From Defluviitaleaceae bacterium (GTDB lineage: Bacteria > Bacillota > Clostridia > Lachnospirales > WRAX01): a stretch of 64,000 bases of DNA. Made by a program: the position numbers and the translations under genes. A model generated the notes under the pieces. The model ran no database searches. It was not told the DNA's origin and saw nothing but the letters and a program-made list of their open reading frames with translations. Where the stretch lies: the NCBI GenBank assembly GCA_009779935.1, contig WRAX01000004.1, positions 1-64,000 on the forward strand, given 5' to 3'. Of this stretch, positions 4,450-42,547 are shown in pieces; positions within the stretch are counted from its first letter, which is position 1, and the number at the start of each line of letters is the position of its first letter.

Positions 4450-4511
4450 CTTATGAAGTGCCAAAAATGGCTTTATTTTTTGTGTTATTCACAATTATAC
4501 GAGGTGACAAG

Positions 4512-4661
4512 ATGAGAACAAAAATCACACTTGCCTGCACAGAATGCAAGCAGCGCAACTACGAATCCAAAAAAGACAAAAAAACCCATCCTGACCGTAT
4601 GGAGTTTAAGAAGCATTGTAAATTTTGCAACAAGCACACTCCGCATAGAGAAACCAGATAA
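4512..4661 (+). CDS. rpmG: 50S ribosomal protein L33
   Basis: [49 protein letters not shown], gene order with secE/nusG. Confidence 0.95.
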
Positions 4662-16274: not shown

Positions 16275-16760
16275 CTACATGCCCTCCAAAAACCGGCTTA
16301 TACTATTTGCTATTTTTGCAAGCCCATCCACATCCGCTTGGGAAAATCTGTCAAACATGGGGCTGTCAATATCCAGCACCCCAAAAACCCTGCCTTTTAT
16401 AAACAAAGGCAATACAATTTCCGAATTACTTTGGGAATCGCAGGCGATGTGCCCGTCAAAAGCATGCACATCAGGCACCACAATAATTTCGCCCTTTTCG
16501 GCAGATGTGCCGCATACCCCACGCCCAATTGGGATGCGTGTGCAAGCAGGCTTACCGCAAAATGGACCAAGCACCAACTCGCCGTCCATGGCCAAATAAA
16601 ACCCCGCCCAGTTCACATCAGGCAAGGCGGTGTATATAAAAGATGCGATATTTGCTAAATTTGCAATAAGGTTCTTCTCATCTCTCAAATGGGCATCAAT
16701 TGCGCCCTGCAATAGCTGGTAATTTTTAGATATATCACTATCCGCTCTAAATTCAAACAT
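16275..16760 (-). CDS. GAF-domain free methionine-(R)-sulfoxide reductase
   Basis: VNWAGFYL...LGPFCGKPACTRIPIGRGVCGTSAEKGEIIVVPDVHAFDGHIACDSQSNSEIVLP (fRMsr Cys pattern). Confidence 0.9.
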   Translation of the reverse strand: MFEFRADSDISKNYQLLQGAIDAHLRDEKNLIANLANIASFIYTALPDVNWAGFYLAMDGELVLGPFCGKPACTRIPIGRGVCGTSAEKGEIIVVPDVHAFDGHIACDSQSNSEIVLPLFIKGRVFGVLDIDSPMFDRFSQADVDGLAKIANSISRFLEGM

Positions 16761-16761
16761 T

Positions 16762-17487
16762 TTAATCCCCATCCACCATTACAAAAATTATTTCATCCCT
16801 ATGCACCAAGCGCAGGTGCTGGCGGGCTGCACTTTCGATAAAGTCCAGGCTTTGCACATATGCGGCTTCGCCACTTAACTCCCTTTGGCGTTCTTCTTGC
16901 TGGGCAATTTGTGCTTCTATGTAGGCAATTTGTGCATTTGCCTCGCTTATACGTCCCATTAGCCCAACTGCCAAATACAAGGCAGTGCCAACCACGGCAA
17001 TCAAAACCAGCAGCTGTATCAGTGCTTTTATACCCAAAGCCACCTTGTTACGTTGGTTTGCATGCTTTATCTTTTGTTTCATAACCCCGCACACGCTCCT
17101 CGCTACTTTTGTACCCTTCATTTTAACAGAATCAGCCCTGCTTTGCAAGCCCCTTTTTGCCACGCCTGCCTTTTTTCGCATGGCAACGGCAAATTTTGCG
17201 CCCAAAGGGAAAATTAGGCGGCTAAGGGTGCATAAATATAAGGTTATCCCTAACCCAACCCCGAGAAAGGTAAAAAAGCGCAATTGCCCAAAATTGATGT
17301 GCATAAGCAATGCAAACAACAAAAGGGCGCAAAACAACCAAAATAAGGCATCTTCCAAAGCGGTTAGCAATGGATTGTGGCGCAACATTTTGCGGAAAAT
17401 GCGAAAACCATCGTAAATAAAACCAAAAACAAAGCCCGCCGCCGCAGTCAATAAAAAGGTGAAGCCTTGACCTGTTAAATCAGCCAT
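16762..17487 (-). CDS. YabQ-type spore cortex protein fused to DivIC/FtsB-type septum initiator domain
   Basis: N-terminal YabQ-like 3-4 TM region, then TM plus coiled coil ending ESAARQHLRLVHRDEIIFVMVD; directly downstream of yabP. Confidence 0.8.
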   Translation of the reverse strand: MADLTGQGFTFLLTAAAGFVFGFIYDGFRIFRKMLRHNPLLTALEDALFWLFCALLLFALLMHINFGQLRFFTFLGVGLGITLYLCTLSRLIFPLGAKFAVAMRKKAGVAKRGLQSRADSVKMKGTKVARSVCGVMKQKIKHANQRNKVALGIKALIQLLVLIAVVGTALYLAVGLMGRISEANAQIAYIEAQIAQQEERQRELSGEAAYVQSLDFIESAARQHLRLVHRDEIIFVMVDGD

Positions 17488-19154: not shown

Positions 19155-20198
19155 TTATTGCGTGCCGTGGTGCATGGTAAAAATTACAACTTCCGGACGG
19201 GAAAAGATGCGGGGTATGTGGTAATACACCCCAATGCCACGGCTGGTAAATATGGGTGTGCCATCGTCGGAATGGGCAAAACCCGCACCAAAACGGGTGC
19301 CATAGGCGGATACGTTGCCGAATAGCAGGTAAAGGGGATACCCAAAAAATGTAATTTGCCCGCCATGGGTATGCCCTGCCAAGGTTAGGCCGATGTTGGC
19401 GGTGGGCTGCAGCATTACCACATCCGGGTTATGGGATATTAGCAGTATAAAATCATCGGGATTTGCGCTTGCTGTTGCCATTGCCACATCGGGGTCGCCC
19501 CAGCCCCACCATAAATCCTGCACACCTGCCAAATAAAAACCATTTGCCACCTGCACGCCGCTGTTGGATAAAAGCCCAATGCCATGCTGTTGCTTAATGG
19601 GGGCAAGCTGATGGTCCCTATCATGGTTGCCGCTTACCCCAAAAATGCCGTGGGTGGTAATTATTTGGGCAATTTCTGCAATTGTGCCTTGGTAGTGGTT
19701 GTTGCCCGCCGAAAAATCCCCACCCAGTAGCACAAGGTCTAAATTACGCTGGTTAAGTCGGCTTGCCACATCCCGCATATCCTCGTGGGGGATTATGTGA
19801 AAATCCGTCATAAAAGCGATGCGGAAGCCATCCAGCTCCTGCGGCCAGTTTTCTGCATAAAAGCTAATTTCTCTGTATCTAACAATCCTATCCAAGGTTA
19901 GGGCGTGGGTTATATGTATTAGGGGCACAAGGGCAATTAAAAGCCCCACAAACGTTGCCGCCTTAAATTTGCGGCGGCGTGTTTTGTGGCGCAACAAAGC
20001 CATGGCAAAAAATGCCCCAAAACCACCAAGGGCAAGGGTGAAGAAAATAAGCACTCCTTCACTGATGCGCCACTGCCCTTTTTTTGCCTTTGCCTTATCC
20101 AGTGCGTATAGTAAAAACGTAAAAAGGCTGGTTGCAAACAAAATAATGGCGGATAACTCTATAACACCAAAGCGCAAAATCCAGCTTAAATTTGGCAT
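19155..20198 (-). CDS. DUF1294 membrane domain fused to YkuE-like metallophosphoesterase
   Basis: YALDKAKAKKGQWRISEGVLIFFTLALGGFGAFFAMALLRHKTRRRKF then MTDFH, GGDFS, GNHD, GHTHGGQ. Confidence 0.85.
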   Translation of the reverse strand: MPNLSWILRFGVIELSAIILFATSLFTFLLYALDKAKAKKGQWRISEGVLIFFTLALGGFGAFFAMALLRHKTRRRKFKAATFVGLLIALVPLIHITHALTLDRIVRYREISFYAENWPQELDGFRIAFMTDFHIIPHEDMRDVASRLNQRNLDLVLLGGDFSAGNNHYQGTIAEIAQIITTHGIFGVSGNHDRDHQLAPIKQQHGIGLLSNSGVQVANGFYLAGVQDLWWGWGDPDVAMATASANPDDFILLISHNPDVVMLQPTANIGLTLAGHTHGGQITFFGYPLYLLFGNVSAYGTRFGAGFAHSDDGTPIFTSRGIGVYYHIPRIFSRPEVVIFTMHHGTQ

Positions 20199-20201
20199 GG
20201 C

Positions 20202-21239
20202 TTACCTCAATTTTTCGGCGGGTATGTGACAGTATCCACCGGGGTTTTTGTCCAAATATTTTTGGTGATACTCCTCAGCTTTGTAATAATTTGTAAGCGG
20301 TAGGTTTTCCACCACAACCGGGTCCTGGTAGGATTTTTGCAGATTAGCAAGAGAGCGGGCGATTATGGCCTGCTCGTCGGGATTTGTAAAATAAATACCC
20401 GGGCGGTATTGGTTGCCAACATCATCCCCTTGGCGGTCACCTGTGGTGGGGTTTACCACCTCATAAAAATATGCCAAAACGCCCATCAGGTCAATCTCTG
20501 CGCTGTTGTAGGTAACTTTTACGGTTTCGGCAAAGCCCGTGTTGCCTTTGCAAACCTCCTCATATGTGGGGTTTTGGGTGTTGCCATTGGCGTAACCCAC
20601 TTCTGCCGCCACAACGCCCTTTTGCAGGTCAAAAAACTTTTCCACACCCCAAAAGCAGCCGCTGGCAAGGTATATGGTTTTTAGGATGTCTATTTGGCAT
20701 TTTGACATAATATTTAATGCCTGTTGATGGCTTTCGGGGGTGGTTGCGGCGCACAAATCGGCGCTTACGGTGATTTTTAGGTTAGGCATTGCATTTTTTG
20801 CCATTATGGCATTGGACACCACGCAAATATCGGTGCAAACACCTACAAACTCCACTTCCGTAAGCTGTGACCGGCGTGCGTGCAAAAAGCTTACCAAGTC
20901 CACACTTCCAAAAATTGGCTTTTGAAAGGCATTATCCACAATGGCTTCGATGCCGCTAACCACTATGGTGTCGGGGTTTGCGTGCCATGCGTCCATAATT
21001 TGCGGGTGTATTTGCCACCCCTGCGTGCCTTTAATGCAATGTGGGATGGGAAGTTTTTTACCCTCGGGTGTATCTAAATAATCGCTACCATGAGTGTCCT
21101 GTGTGAACAGGATAAGCTCACCACGGCTTTCCGCCACCCTTTGGGCTATTTTGCTTACAATTGCGGCAGCTTCGGGCGTACCTAAAACGCCGTTTATAAA
21201 GTCGTGTTGCATGTCAACAATTACCAAGGCTTTGTGCAT
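20202..21239 (-). CDS. isochorismatase/nicotinamidase-family hydrolase fused to peptide methionine sulfoxide reductase A
   Basis: N: VIVDMQHDFI, TQDTHGSDYLDTPEGKKLPIPHC, VGVCTDICV; C: YLASGCFWGVEKFF, GYANG, GDRQGDDVGNQYRPGIYF, AEEYHQKYLDKNPGGYC. Confidence 0.92.
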   Translation of the reverse strand: MHKALVIVDMQHDFINGVLGTPEAAAIVSKIAQRVAESRGELILFTQDTHGSDYLDTPEGKKLPIPHCIKGTQGWQIHPQIMDAWHANPDTIVVSGIEAIVDNAFQKPIFGSVDLVSFLHARRSQLTEVEFVGVCTDICVVSNAIMAKNAMPNLKITVSADLCAATTPESHQQALNIMSKCQIDILKTIYLASGCFWGVEKFFDLQKGVVAAEVGYANGNTQNPTYEEVCKGNTGFAETVKVTYNSAEIDLMGVLAYFYEVVNPTTGDRQGDDVGNQYRPGIYFTNPDEQAIIARSLANLQKSYQDPVVVENLPLTNYYKAEEYHQKYLDKNPGGYCHIPAEKLR

Positions 21240-21240
21240 T

Positions 21241-21870
21241 TTATCGCCCCCTGTTTATTGGATTGTGCTTTTTCTCGTATTTTATGGTTGTGGCACTGCC
21301 ATGGCCGGGATATACATCGGTATCGTCGGGCAACTCAAAAAGGCGGAATAGAGATGCTTTCAGCTGGTCAAAATCGCTTGTAGGCAGGTCGTGGCGGCCG
21401 TAACTGCCCTTAAAAAGGCAATCCCCCGAAAATAGGGTGCTATGTGCAGGCAGGTGGAAGCACAGATGCCCGTGGGTATGCCCCGGGGTGGAAATTGCGT
21501 GGATTTCCAACCCCGCAATATTTAGCATTTGCCCGCCTTCGATGTACTTGGTAACGGTGCAGACAACCTCAGGCCGCCTCATAGGCTTGCAGCCGTTTAG
21601 GTAGGTGTCCGCCGCTAATTCCGCTTCTAATTCTGAGGAATACACATCAACACCAAGGGCTTCCCGTAAGGCATCAACTGCCCCGATATGGTCAAAATGC
21701 CCATGGGTTAGTAATATGGCAACTAATGTTAAGCCTCTTTTTTCCAACTCCTGTTGTATATGCGTGGCTTCACAGCCGGGGTCTATTAATACAGCTTCTG
21801 TTGCACCGTCATTGTGCAAAATATATGCGTTTGTACCCACTACACCTACGGGCATTGTTACAATGTTCAT
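21241..21870 (-). CDS. MBL-fold hydrolase (glyoxalase II/YqgX-like)
   Basis: LTHGHFDHIGA, STPGHTHGHLCFH, SGDCLF, YPGHGSATT. Confidence 0.9.
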   Translation of the reverse strand: MNIVTMPVGVVGTNAYILHNDGATEAVLIDPGCEATHIQQELEKRGLTLVAILLTHGHFDHIGAVDALREALGVDVYSSELEAELAADTYLNGCKPMRRPEVVCTVTKYIEGGQMLNIAGLEIHAISTPGHTHGHLCFHLPAHSTLFSGDCLFKGSYGRHDLPTSDFDQLKASLFRLFELPDDTDVYPGHGSATTIKYEKKHNPINRGR

Positions 21871-21888: not shown

Positions 21889-24156
21889 TTATGTCATTTT
21901 TCTGTCAACTTGGTTAATGCCTTTTAGGGACATTAGGCGGTTGCTGGCTCGCTCCAAAGTTTCACGGTTATCCACACTTATTATTAGGCTGCAAACTGCC
22001 TCGCCCCCGACGTTTCCTGCGTTTATGGCTTTAATTTCAATGTTCATTTTGGAGAAGGCATCGGTTATTTGGGCAACGCAACCTACACTGTCACAATATA
22101 TGCGCATTTCTGCTGTAAACTTACTGTCTTGCAGGGCGGCTTGGTTCCAGCTAACCTCCACCAACCTGCGGGTGTTTTCTGGGGAGATGTTAGCGATTGT
22201 AACACAAGCCACTTGATGGACGGCAACCCCACGCCCACGGGTAACAAAACCAACCACGTCATCCCCGGGGATTGGGTTACAGCACTTGGAAAAATGGGTG
22301 GCAAGCCCTGTTTCGCCTTGTATAACAATTGCGCCGTGGTTGTGGCGGTGTTTTTGTTGGTGGGTGTTTTTGTTTATGGCATCAATTATCTCTCGTGTGT
22401 CCACTATTTCCGGGTTTAGATCTTGATAAACCTCGTAAAGGCGGTTTATCACACTGTTTTCTTTAATATCACCACGCCCTACGGCGGCACATAGTGTATC
22501 AAAATCGTGCATGGAAAAACGGTTTAGCAGCATTTTTTCCCCCTGCGGGGTGTGTAGTGCGGCAAAGGCGTAACCCTTGCGCCTTGCGGTTTTTTCCAAC
22601 AATTCCTTTCCCTTGATAAGGGAGATATCCCTATCCTCTTTTTTTTGCCATTGGCGTATTTTGGTTTTGGCAGATGGGGTTTTTACCATATTAAGCCAAT
22701 CCGCCGTGGGGCCTTTTGCGTTGCCGGATGTTACAATTTCTACCAAGTCACCGTTTCTAAGCAATGTGCCAATGGGCACAATTTTCCCGTTAATTTTTGC
22801 TCCCGTCATCTTATTACCTACGGAGGAGTGGACGTGATAAGCAAAATCAATGCAAGTGGAGCCGGCAGGCAAGGTTTTTACCTGTTGCTGCGGGGTGTAG
22901 CAATACACCCATTCGGTGTGTATGTTTAGATTTTCTTTTAGCAAGGGCAAAAACTCATCATTGTCGGGGTTTTCCCTTTGCATGGTTAAAATTTCTGCAA
23001 GCCAAGCCATTTTTTCGTCGCTGGCATCTTGCCCTTTGTCACCTTCTTTGTACTTCCAGTGGGCGGCAATGCCTGTTTCTGCTTCCCTGTGCATATCTTC
23101 GGTGCGTATTTGCACCTCAAAAGGTTCGCTATCCGGCCCCCAAAGCACATTGTGGATGGATTGGTATCCATTACCTTTGGGGTTGCTTATATAATCCTTA
23201 AAAGTGTCAGGCATGGGGGTATATGCGCTGTTTACAATGCCCAGCACCCGCCAACACTCCTCCTTGGTTTCCACGATAACACGCACGGCAAAAAGGTCAA
23301 GTATCTCTTCTAATTCCCTTTCCTTATTTGCCATTTTTTTGTAAATGGAAAAAAAGTGCTTTGGGCGACCCTTAACCTGCCCAAAAATCCCATCTTCATG
23401 CAGGCGCATCCTAAGTGTACCCACTATATCTTCCATATATTCCATGCGTTGTTTAAGCTTCATATTAACTTTTTCTTTAACCATTTGGAAGGTGGTAGGG
23501 TCGCTGTACTTAAAGGACAAATCCTCCATTTCCCGTCGAAGGGTAGAAACGCCCAAACGCCCTGCAATTGGGGCATAAATATCCAGCGATTCCTGTGCGA
23601 TGCGCTTTTGTTTTTCGGGCTCCATAAAGTTTAGGGTGCGCAAATTATGCACCCTGTCCGCTAATTTTATTAAAACCACACGTATGTCATCCGCCATGGC
23701 AACAAACATTTTGCGGTAGTTGTTGGTTTGCTCCTCTTCCCGCTCTTTATCATTGCCGCGGGTTTTTACTTTTTTACTTTCTTCATCAGGCTCGGGTTTG
23801 CCCAATTGCTCTTTTTTCATGGTTTTAAGCTTGGTTACGCCATCCACGAGGCTGGCAACTTCCTGCCCAAACATTTTCACCATATCATCCAATGTATATT
23901 CGGTATCTTCCACAATATCATGTAAAATGCCTGCGGTTATGGTTTCCCTGTCCAGTTCCAGTTCCGCTAAAATAATGGCAACTTCCAGCGGGTGTATTAT
24001 ATATGGCTCGCCGGATTTGCGCAGTTGCCCCTCGTGGGCTTCTTTTGCAAGCTTGTAAGCACCTTCCACCATAGAAAAATCGGAGGAAGGGCGATATGTT
24101 TGCATTTTTTTGATAAGTGCCTCAAAAAGCTGGTCACCGGTATTTTTGCTGTACAT
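21889..24156 (-). CDS. rel: bifunctional (p)ppGpp synthetase/hydrolase
   Basis: HD domain LHDIVEDTEYT, synthetase YQSIHN, TGS, ACT domains. Confidence 0.96.
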   Translation of the reverse strand: MYSKNTGDQLFEALIKKMQTYRPSSDFSMVEGAYKLAKEAHEGQLRKSGEPYIIHPLEVAIILAELELDRETITAGILHDIVEDTEYTLDDMVKMFGQEVASLVDGVTKLKTMKKEQLGKPEPDEESKKVKTRGNDKEREEEQTNNYRKMFVAMADDIRVVLIKLADRVHNLRTLNFMEPEKQKRIAQESLDIYAPIAGRLGVSTLRREMEDLSFKYSDPTTFQMVKEKVNMKLKQRMEYMEDIVGTLRMRLHEDGIFGQVKGRPKHFFSIYKKMANKERELEEILDLFAVRVIVETKEECWRVLGIVNSAYTPMPDTFKDYISNPKGNGYQSIHNVLWGPDSEPFEVQIRTEDMHREAETGIAAHWKYKEGDKGQDASDEKMAWLAEILTMQRENPDNDEFLPLLKENLNIHTEWVYCYTPQQQVKTLPAGSTCIDFAYHVHSSVGNKMTGAKINGKIVPIGTLLRNGDLVEIVTSGNAKGPTADWLNMVKTPSAKTKIRQWQKKEDRDISLIKGKELLEKTARRKGYAFAALHTPQGEKMLLNRFSMHDFDTLCAAVGRGDIKENSVINRLYEVYQDLNPEIVDTREIIDAINKNTHQQKHRHNHGAIVIQGETGLATHFSKCCNPIPGDDVVGFVTRGRGVAVHQVACVTIANISPENTRRLVEVSWNQAALQDSKFTAEMRIYCDSVGCVAQITDAFSKMNIEIKAINAGNVGGEAVCSLIISVDNRETLERASNRLMSLKGINQVDRKMT

Positions 24157-40301: not shown

Positions 40302-41774
40302 ATGGATAAACGCAGCCTATTGACGGACTTTTACCAACTAACTATGATGCAGGCAAGGTTTAGGGCGGGGGATACCTGCCAAAACGCCATTTTTGACATG
40401 TTCATAAGGGAAAATCCCGGGGGCAACGGATTTTCAGTATTTGCGGGACTTGCCCAGTTTGTTGAATATATTGATAACTTGGGTTTTGATGGCGAAGATG
40501 TGGGTTATTTGCAGGGCTTGGGCATATTTGATGATGACTTTTTGGAGTACCTGCGGGAATTTCGCTTTACAGGTGACATATCAGCCATGGCAGAGGGGTC
40601 GGTGTTTTTTCCAACCGAGCCTGTGGTGATTGTAAAAGCCCCATTAATCCAAGCAAATTTTATTGAAACTGCTATGCTAAATATCCTTAACCATCAAAGC
40701 TTGATTGCCACCAAAGCCGCACGGGTATGCCATGCCGCAGGTGATGATGATGTGTTGGAATTCGGCTTACGGCGGGCGCAGGGAGCGGATGCAGGGGTTT
40801 TGGGCGCAAGGGCGGCAATTATCGGCGGCTGTGCCGCCACATCCAATGTTTTGGCGGGCAAAAAGTTTGGCTTGCCCTTGCGTGGCACCCACTCCCACTC
40901 CTGGGTAATGTCCTTTGATTGTGAATTAAAGGCCTTTCGTCAGTATGCCAACGCTTTTCCCGACAAATGTATTTTGTTGGTGGATACATTTGATACAATA
41001 AATTCGGGCGTTCCCAATGCCATTAAGGTGTTTGGAGAGATGCGGGCGAAGGGTGTAAAGCTTCAAAACTACGGCATTCGTCTCGATTCGGGTGATTTGG
41101 CGTATTTATCTAAGATTGCAAGGCAGATGCTGGATGATGCAGGCTATAAAGACGCAAGAATAAGTGCATCCAGTGATCTGGATGAGGATTTGATACAATC
41201 CCTAAAATTGCAGGGGGCAAAAATTGACGTGTGGGGAGTGGGTACCCGCCTAATCACATCCATGCAGGCACCTGCCATGGGCGGGGTGTACAAACTGGTA
41301 GCGGCGGAGGAAGATGGGCGCATGATGCCCAAGATTAAACTGTCGGAAAACCCTGCAAAAGTCACTATTCCGGGGAAAAAGAAGGTGTGGCGCATTTATG
41401 ATGCCAACCATAATAAAATTAAAGCGGACCTTATAATGCTTGTGGAGGAAACCCTGAATACAGGCAAAAACCTAACCTTATTCGACCCAAAAGACCCTTG
41501 GAAAAAAATGCACTTAACCGCCGGGGAATACTATGCCAAAGAATTGTTGCAACCGATTTTTGAAGCCGGCAAACAGGTCTACCAATCTCCATCCACACTG
41601 GAAATACGGGATTTTTGCCGTAACGAACAGCAAAGCCTGTGGGACGAGCATCGCCGGCTGGTTAACCCCCATGTGATGCCTGTAGATTTATCGCAAAAAC
41701 TATATGACTTAAAGCAGAAAATGTTGCACGAATCCCGTAAAGACATGGGCGAAACCCCGTCATCTTGGCTATAA
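40302..41774 (+). CDS. pncB: nicotinate phosphoribosyltransferase
   Basis: LLTDFYQLTMMQARF, GTHSHSWVMSFD, LLVDTFDT, GIRLDSGDLAYLSK, GVGTRLITS. Confidence 0.96.
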   Translation: MDKRSLLTDFYQLTMMQARFRAGDTCQNAIFDMFIRENPGGNGFSVFAGLAQFVEYIDNLGFDGEDVGYLQGLGIFDDDFLEYLREFRFTGDISAMAEGSVFFPTEPVVIVKAPLIQANFIETAMLNILNHQSLIATKAARVCHAAGDDDVLEFGLRRAQGADAGVLGARAAIIGGCAATSNVLAGKKFGLPLRGTHSHSWVMSFDCELKAFRQYANAFPDKCILLVDTFDTINSGVPNAIKVFGEMRAKGVKLQNYGIRLDSGDLAYLSKIARQMLDDAGYKDARISASSDLDEDLIQSLKLQGAKIDVWGVGTRLITSMQAPAMGGVYKLVAAEEDGRMMPKIKLSENPAKVTIPGKKKVWRIYDANHNKIKADLIMLVEETLNTGKNLTLFDPKDPWKKMHLTAGEYYAKELLQPIFEAGKQVYQSPSTLEIRDFCRNEQQSLWDEHRRLVNPHVMPVDLSQKLYDLKQKMLHESRKDMGETPSSWL

Positions 41775-41791
41775 TTCGGAGGAGAGTTACT

Positions 41792-42547
41792 ATGAAAGAT
41801 AAAGTTTTGCAACTAACCGAAATCATTAAAAATAGCACAAATACAGTGTTTTTTGGTGGGGCAGGGGTATCCACAGAAAGTAATATACCCGACTTTCGTT
41901 CTGAAAAGGGCCTGTACAGTGCGCAGGAAAAATATGGATATACACCTGAGGAGCTTTTAAGCCACAACTGCTTCAAACATATGACAGAGCTGTTTTTTCG
42001 GTACTACAAAGAAAATATGATTTACATGGATGCCCTGCCAAATCCCGCCCACAAGGCGTTGGCGTGGATGGAAGCTTCCGGAAAACTTTCCTGTGTTATT
42101 ACCCAAAATGTGGATGGTTTGCATCAAATGGCGGGTAGCAAAAATGTATTGGAGCTGCATGGGGCAAACGACCGCCAATACTGTGTAAAATGCAACAAAA
42201 AATATGATTTGATGTATATTTTGTATCAGGGTAATTGTGACGGTTTTATCCCCAAATGCGCCTGTGGGGGCGTTGTGCGCCCCGATGTGGTGCTGTATGG
42301 CGAAGGGCTTGATAATGATGTTACCAGCAGTGCCGTAAGTGCAATTAGGCGGGCAGAATGCTTGATTGTTGGCGGTACATCCCTTGCTGTATACCCCGCC
42401 GCCGGGCTTATTGAATACTTGCCGGAAAACGGTACCTTGGTGTTGATAAATAAAAGCACCACCCCCTATGATGACCACGCAGACCTGATAATTAGGGAAA
42501 ATATCGGCGAAGTGTTGGGGATGGTGCAATTAAAATTACAAATTTAG
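41792..42547 (+). CDS. Sir2-family NAD-dependent deacylase
   Basis: FFGGAGVSTESNIPDFRSEKGLY, TQNVDGLHQMAG, ELHGA, CxxC zinc ligands, VVLYGE, GGTSLAVYPA. Confidence 0.96.
   Translation: MKDKVLQLTEIIKNSTNTVFFGGAGVSTESNIPDFRSEKGLYSAQEKYGYTPEELLSHNCFKHMTELFFRYYKENMIYMDALPNPAHKALAWMEASGKLSCVITQNVDGLHQMAGSKNVLELHGANDRQYCVKCNKKYDLMYILYQGNCDGFIPKCACGGVVRPDVVLYGEGLDNDVTSSAVSAIRRAECLIVGGTSLAVYPAAGLIEYLPENGTLVLINKSTTPYDDHADLIIRENIGEVLGMVQLKLQI

Follow-up and report, generated by a model that had tools for sequence, protein, structure and literature searches.

A genus-restricted fusion of a PncA-like cysteine hydrolase and methionine sulfoxide reductase A in termite-gut Defluviitaleaceae

Introduction

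The closest described systems to the protein reported here are the solved PncA nicotinamidases and the proteins in which methionine sulfoxide reductase A (MsrA) is joined to other domains. The nicotinamidase of S. pneumoniae has an Asp9/Lys103/Cys136 triad and holds zinc on Asp53/His55/Glu64/His71 (PMC6271260), and metal is absent from the related amidases BiuH, RutB and NicF (PMC5806882). In Neisseria PilB, an MsrA with a catalytic Cys51 and a regenerating Cys198 is joined to MsrB and a thioredoxin-like domain via linkers of 20 and 26 residues (PMC6210582). MsrA is also one module of the MsrA-MsrB and MsrB-MsrA bifunctional proteins (NF010625, NF004042).

We analyzed a 64,000-nucleotide window from a Defluviitaleaceae bacterium (contig WRAX01000004.1, positions 1 to 64,000), in which MsrA is fused without a linker to a PncA-like cysteine hydrolase. 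As in the NF010625 and NF004042 proteins, MsrA here would be one module of a bifunctional polypeptide but, unlike in those proteins, the MsrB domain is missing from the fused ORF.

Results

The fused ORF lies at 20202..21239 on the minus strand and encodes 345 aa, with an ATG start codon and no internal stops. A sequence-only reading had proposed a single uninterrupted frame joining the two domains, and domain searches agreed with it. Pfam Isochorismatase (PF00857) matched residues 4-186 (E=2.5e-21; 77 bits against a cut-off of 27) and Pfam PMSR (PF01625), a complete MsrA, matched residues 188-338 (E=9.4e-59; 198.5 bits against 23.7), with the NCBIfam msrA model TIGR00401 scoring 194 bits against a cut-off of 108.1. 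All of the hydrolase and MsrA motifs quoted in that reading (VDMQHDF, TQDTH...LPIPHC, CTDIC, GCFWG, GDRQGDDVGNQYRPGIYF and EYHQKYL) were found in the ORF.

The two halves meet at residues 184-188 (DIL|KT; 20676..20690, minus strand) and a linker is absent. Alignment of the junction DNA revealed that the stop-spacer-start segment known from relatives is missing at the joint, and the hydrolase end (C-x-I-x-I) is followed by a single residue, which varies among the fused species (L, Y or H), and then by KTIYL. In an AlphaFold model (pLDDT 86.7, pTM 0.85), whose input alignment used the read-through of two in-frame neighbour pairs, a predicted strand at 184-192 spans the joint without interruption, which leaves room for a rigid domain arrangement. 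The hydrolase half modelled alone as a single sequence gave a poor result (pLDDT 54) and that model was left unused.

The hydrolase half (residues 1-186; 20682..21239, minus strand) is an isochorismatase-like cysteine hydrolase, with PF00857 above its cut-off and an Asp-Lys-Cys triad. The triad (D9, K107, C139) and the metal-ligand positions (D48, H50, E59, H67), with residue numbers verified, are nearly invariant among aligned hydrolases, and 3s2s and related enzymes carry the same residue types in register. Foldseek matched the model to B. subtilis PncA (5zn8) and the S. pneumoniae enzyme (3o93) with TM-scores by target of 0.74-0.76. This half is like PncA (B. subtilis 5zn8, S. pneumoniae 3o90-3o94, M. 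tuberculosis 3pl1) in fold, catalytic triad and metal-ligand set. It is unlike these enzymes in carrying MsrA at its C-terminus, in belonging to a sequence subgroup that has no named equivalog model, and in having about 27% identity to the solved PncAs of B. subtilis and S. pneumoniae. None of the NCBIfam equivalogs matched the hydrolase half at its cut-off. The nicotinamidase equivalog NF008623 matched weakly (33 bits; cut-off 174), and its cut-off is the naming threshold of one subgroup rather than a defining chemical feature. PncA membership, for which the Asp/His/Glu/His ligand set is present and the NF008623 cut-off was missed, is only probable because of this weak match, and nicotinamide is the presumed substrate.

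The gene content of the genome also bears on this assignment, with absences assessed one family at a time in an assembly that is 94% complete. The fused ORF is the only isochorismatase-family gene detected in this assembly, one NAPRT gene is present, and a search of it for NadA gave no detection. On the basis of this combination, the hydrolase half is probably PncA, a metal-dependent nicotinamidase, an assignment drawn from the sequence and the model. It is the only nicotinamidase candidate of the isochorismatase family, and the genome appears dependent on niacin/nicotinamide salvage, as suggested by the presence of pncB where no NadA was detected. The nicotinate phosphoribosyltransferase gene pncB (40302-41774) and an NAD-dependent deacylase (sirtuin) gene (41765-42547) are adjacent to each other, 19 kb from the fusion, where the sequence-only reading had located them. 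A hydrolase of another genome (G042), considered as part of a PncA-PncB fusion in an 800-aa frame, was rejected as such, since it is a normal stand-alone ORF of 170 aa with an RlmH-like ORF next to it.

The MsrA half (residues 187-345; 20205..20681, minus strand) belongs to the MsrA family by PF01625 and TIGR00401, both above cut-off, and by its cysteines. Catalytic C195 (GCFWG) and the C-terminal regenerating C337 (YCHI) align with Cys51 and Cys198 of PilB MsrA. Foldseek matched the model to Neisseria PilB MsrA (3bqe-3bqh) with TM-scores by target of 0.84-0.85 and 57% identity in the structural match. The residue before GCFWG is Ser in all fused forms (ASGCFWG, GSGCFWG), whereas separate homologues in the family have AGGCFWG. 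A single MsrA copy was found in the 94%-complete assembly, and an MsrB (SelR) domain was detected neither in the fused protein nor elsewhere in that assembly. Across the family, MsrB (SelR, PF01641) was found in none of 16 genomes, though MsrA is widespread. A homologue of the free-Met-R-SO reductase (fRMsr) that had been claimed from about 16275 onwards is indeed encoded there (16275-16772), with E. coli YebR as the best solved match (E=5e-47). It belongs to the same operon-like run as the fusion; in G002 and G008 it is on a contig other than that of the fusion or the pair. An fRMsr homologue was found in 11 of the 16 family genomes.

Upstream of the fusion, 1 nt off, is an MBL-fold hydrolase gene (GloB-like; 21241..21870, minus strand) conserved in the family, and before it RelA/SpoT (21889..24156, minus strand), the head of a relA-gloB-hydrolase block conserved across the family. 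An ORF combining DUF1294 with a YaeI-like metallophosphoesterase (19155..20198, minus strand) follows 3 nt downstream. From relA to mobB the genes are closely spaced, with gaps between -11 and 68 nt, and where genes lie this close a small deletion is able to fuse them. A second fusion is located 2.7 kb from the first, where Spore_YabQ and DivIC domains share one 241-aa ORF (16762-17487). All three species of the genus share this fused frame too, while several relatives (G004, G008, G012) have YabQ and DivIC as separate frames next to each other. In G019 and G011, YabQ and DivIC may be joined too, or nearly so.

Within a family search set of 16 genomes, the source genome included, the same two-domain ORF was present and stop-free in both other genomes of the genus, whose proteins are 79% and 76% identical to it across residues 1-344. 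These relatives are the Defluviitaleaceae MAGs Lab288P1bin137 and Co191P1bin84. Their sample codes refer to Labiotermes labralis and Cornitermes sp., two termites whose guts belong to a published set in which the P1 compartment was the source of most Defluviitaleaceae (PMC7024585). The genus carrying the fusion is one of uncultured termite-gut bacteria. In all three pairwise comparisons dN was 0.12-0.17 (NG86) for both halves against a dS of at least 1.3, with dS at or near saturation and saturated in one case, and the hydrolase and MsrA halves each bear the signature of purifying selection. M178 is encoded by ATG in all three fused species. A good upstream SD was present in G002 only, where GGAGG sits 11 nt ahead of M178, and some separate synthesis of MsrA is therefore possible in that species. 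No conserved internal start for a separate MsrA was seen inside the fused ORF across the three species.

In sister genera the two genes are separate but adjacent, arranged in the order of the fusion and on a common strand (G005, G013 and G015 of one genus, G008 of another), and the distance from the hydrolase stop to the msrA ATG was 15-40 nt in these four genomes (hand count from the junction alignment). In G004 the hydrolase gene follows relA-gloB and MsrA is encoded on a different contig. Gene trees placed the fused forms in one clade for both halves (support 100/97 and 98/100), and the adjacent forms in one clade for the hydrolase (96/94), a grouping that was unsupported for MsrA. The hydrolase/MsrA spacer of G015 (contig L113, about 4505-4555) is longer and contains a perfect short inverted repeat, CGGCT-TGT-AGCCG.

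The search for other fusions of this kind covered 391 genomes sampled from the class and 399 sampled from the phylum. No further full-length match was present among the matches listed for the class sample, in which any close fusion would be expected among the first entries and weak two-piece cases may sit below those listed, and none was present in the phylum sample at an E of 1e-60 or better. Both samples span one phylum, and exact peptide seeds reached only close relatives in other phyla. Long MsrA-bearing frames in the samples had the length expected of MsrA-MsrB fusions (judged by length). Searches of the open literature gave nothing relevant on an isochorismatase and MsrA pair. The fusion is a new combination of known enzymes that is rare within the phylum sampled. 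It had been called unusual from the sequence, and these searches bear this out; genome samples of one phylum gave no sign that it is already common in databases.

Discussion

The fusion is real, conserved and restricted to one genus, and joins two known enzymes that, judged by their sequences, both appear intact. The reading that we favour, with a probability of about 0.75, is a bifunctional enzyme derived from two fused neighbour genes, comprising a PncA-type nicotinamidase and a thioredoxin-recycled MsrA that act independently. We infer the nicotinamide substrate, the thioredoxin reductant and the independence of the halves. The N-terminal half would convert nicotinamide to nicotinic acid in a metal-dependent reaction, with PncB then converting the product towards NAD, and the C-terminal half would reduce Met-S-sulfoxide via C195, with C337 regenerating the enzyme and thioredoxin recycling it. 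The fusion itself would add only one-to-one synthesis.

The simplest reading of its history is that the hydrolase gene settled behind relA-gloB and that msrA came to lie beside it in one sub-lineage as a separate operon neighbour. In the ancestor of the genus, one in-frame deletion would then have removed the hydrolase stop codon, the RBS-bearing spacer and the msrA start. We infer that the direction was from separate to fused.

An alternative origin, in which an assembly or sequencing artefact deleted the intergenic stretch, would draw on every genome concerned being a draft assembly of many contigs. The chance of this is negligible, as the same in-frame joint is found in three independent species at 76-79% identity. 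No stop or frameshift separates the domains in any of them, and the intact ORF in the two further species excludes chance or a frameshift artefact. It is rather unlikely that the hydrolase half is a cysteine hydrolase for another amide, with the remainder of the preferred explanation unchanged. Its failure to reach any equivalog cut-off, its low identity to solved PncAs and the position of the gene next to relA-gloB rather than pncB would fit such a substrate, but all four metal-ligand positions and the triad agree with a nicotinamidase, and the half is the only member of its family detected in this genome, which has NAPRT but no detected NadA.

Adaptive coupling is unlikely. In this reading the tethered MsrA would, under oxidation, protect the hydrolase or NAD salvage or regulate either of them, or the continuous strand at the joint would pass a state from one domain to the other. 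The linker-free joint with one predicted strand across it (pTM 0.85), the constraint on both halves in all three species and the Ser ahead of GCFWG that marks the fused forms are consistent with coupling. However, the fusion is confined to one genus, with related genera using unfused genes, which in G004 lie on two contigs, and the fused Msr domains of PilB act independently, although MsrAB fusions other than PilB gain efficiency (PMC6210582). Neighbour fusion is also not special to this pair, as YabQ and DivIC are fused in the genus and separate in most relatives; the presence of that fusion only 2.7 kb away speaks more for operon neighbours joining by chance than for coupling under selection. 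More doubtful still is a specific form of coupling, in which MsrA in cis would preserve the activity of the cell's sole nicotinamidase under oxidation, or NAD salvage would be gated by oxidation. The sequence-only reading had linked NAD-precursor hydrolysis with methionine sulfoxide repair in one polypeptide. The physical part of this stands, as a genuine and rare fusion with both halves intact; the missing linker, the adjacent separate genes of sister genera and the second neighbour fusion go beyond what that reading had noticed. The functional link does not follow, since the joint looks like a genus-restricted deletion between operon neighbours with another fusion nearby, and functional coupling is possible but unsupported. 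Ordinary bifunctionality from gene neighbours, with two independent activities, is most likely.

If the linker-free joint did couple the domains, the protein would be a redox-coupled NAD-salvage enzyme. The second fusion nearby suggests that neighbours join here without a functional link, which calls for caution in 'Rosetta stone' inference. The locus clearly illustrates a domain fusion whose likely precursor state, two adjacent separate genes, is seen in sister genera.
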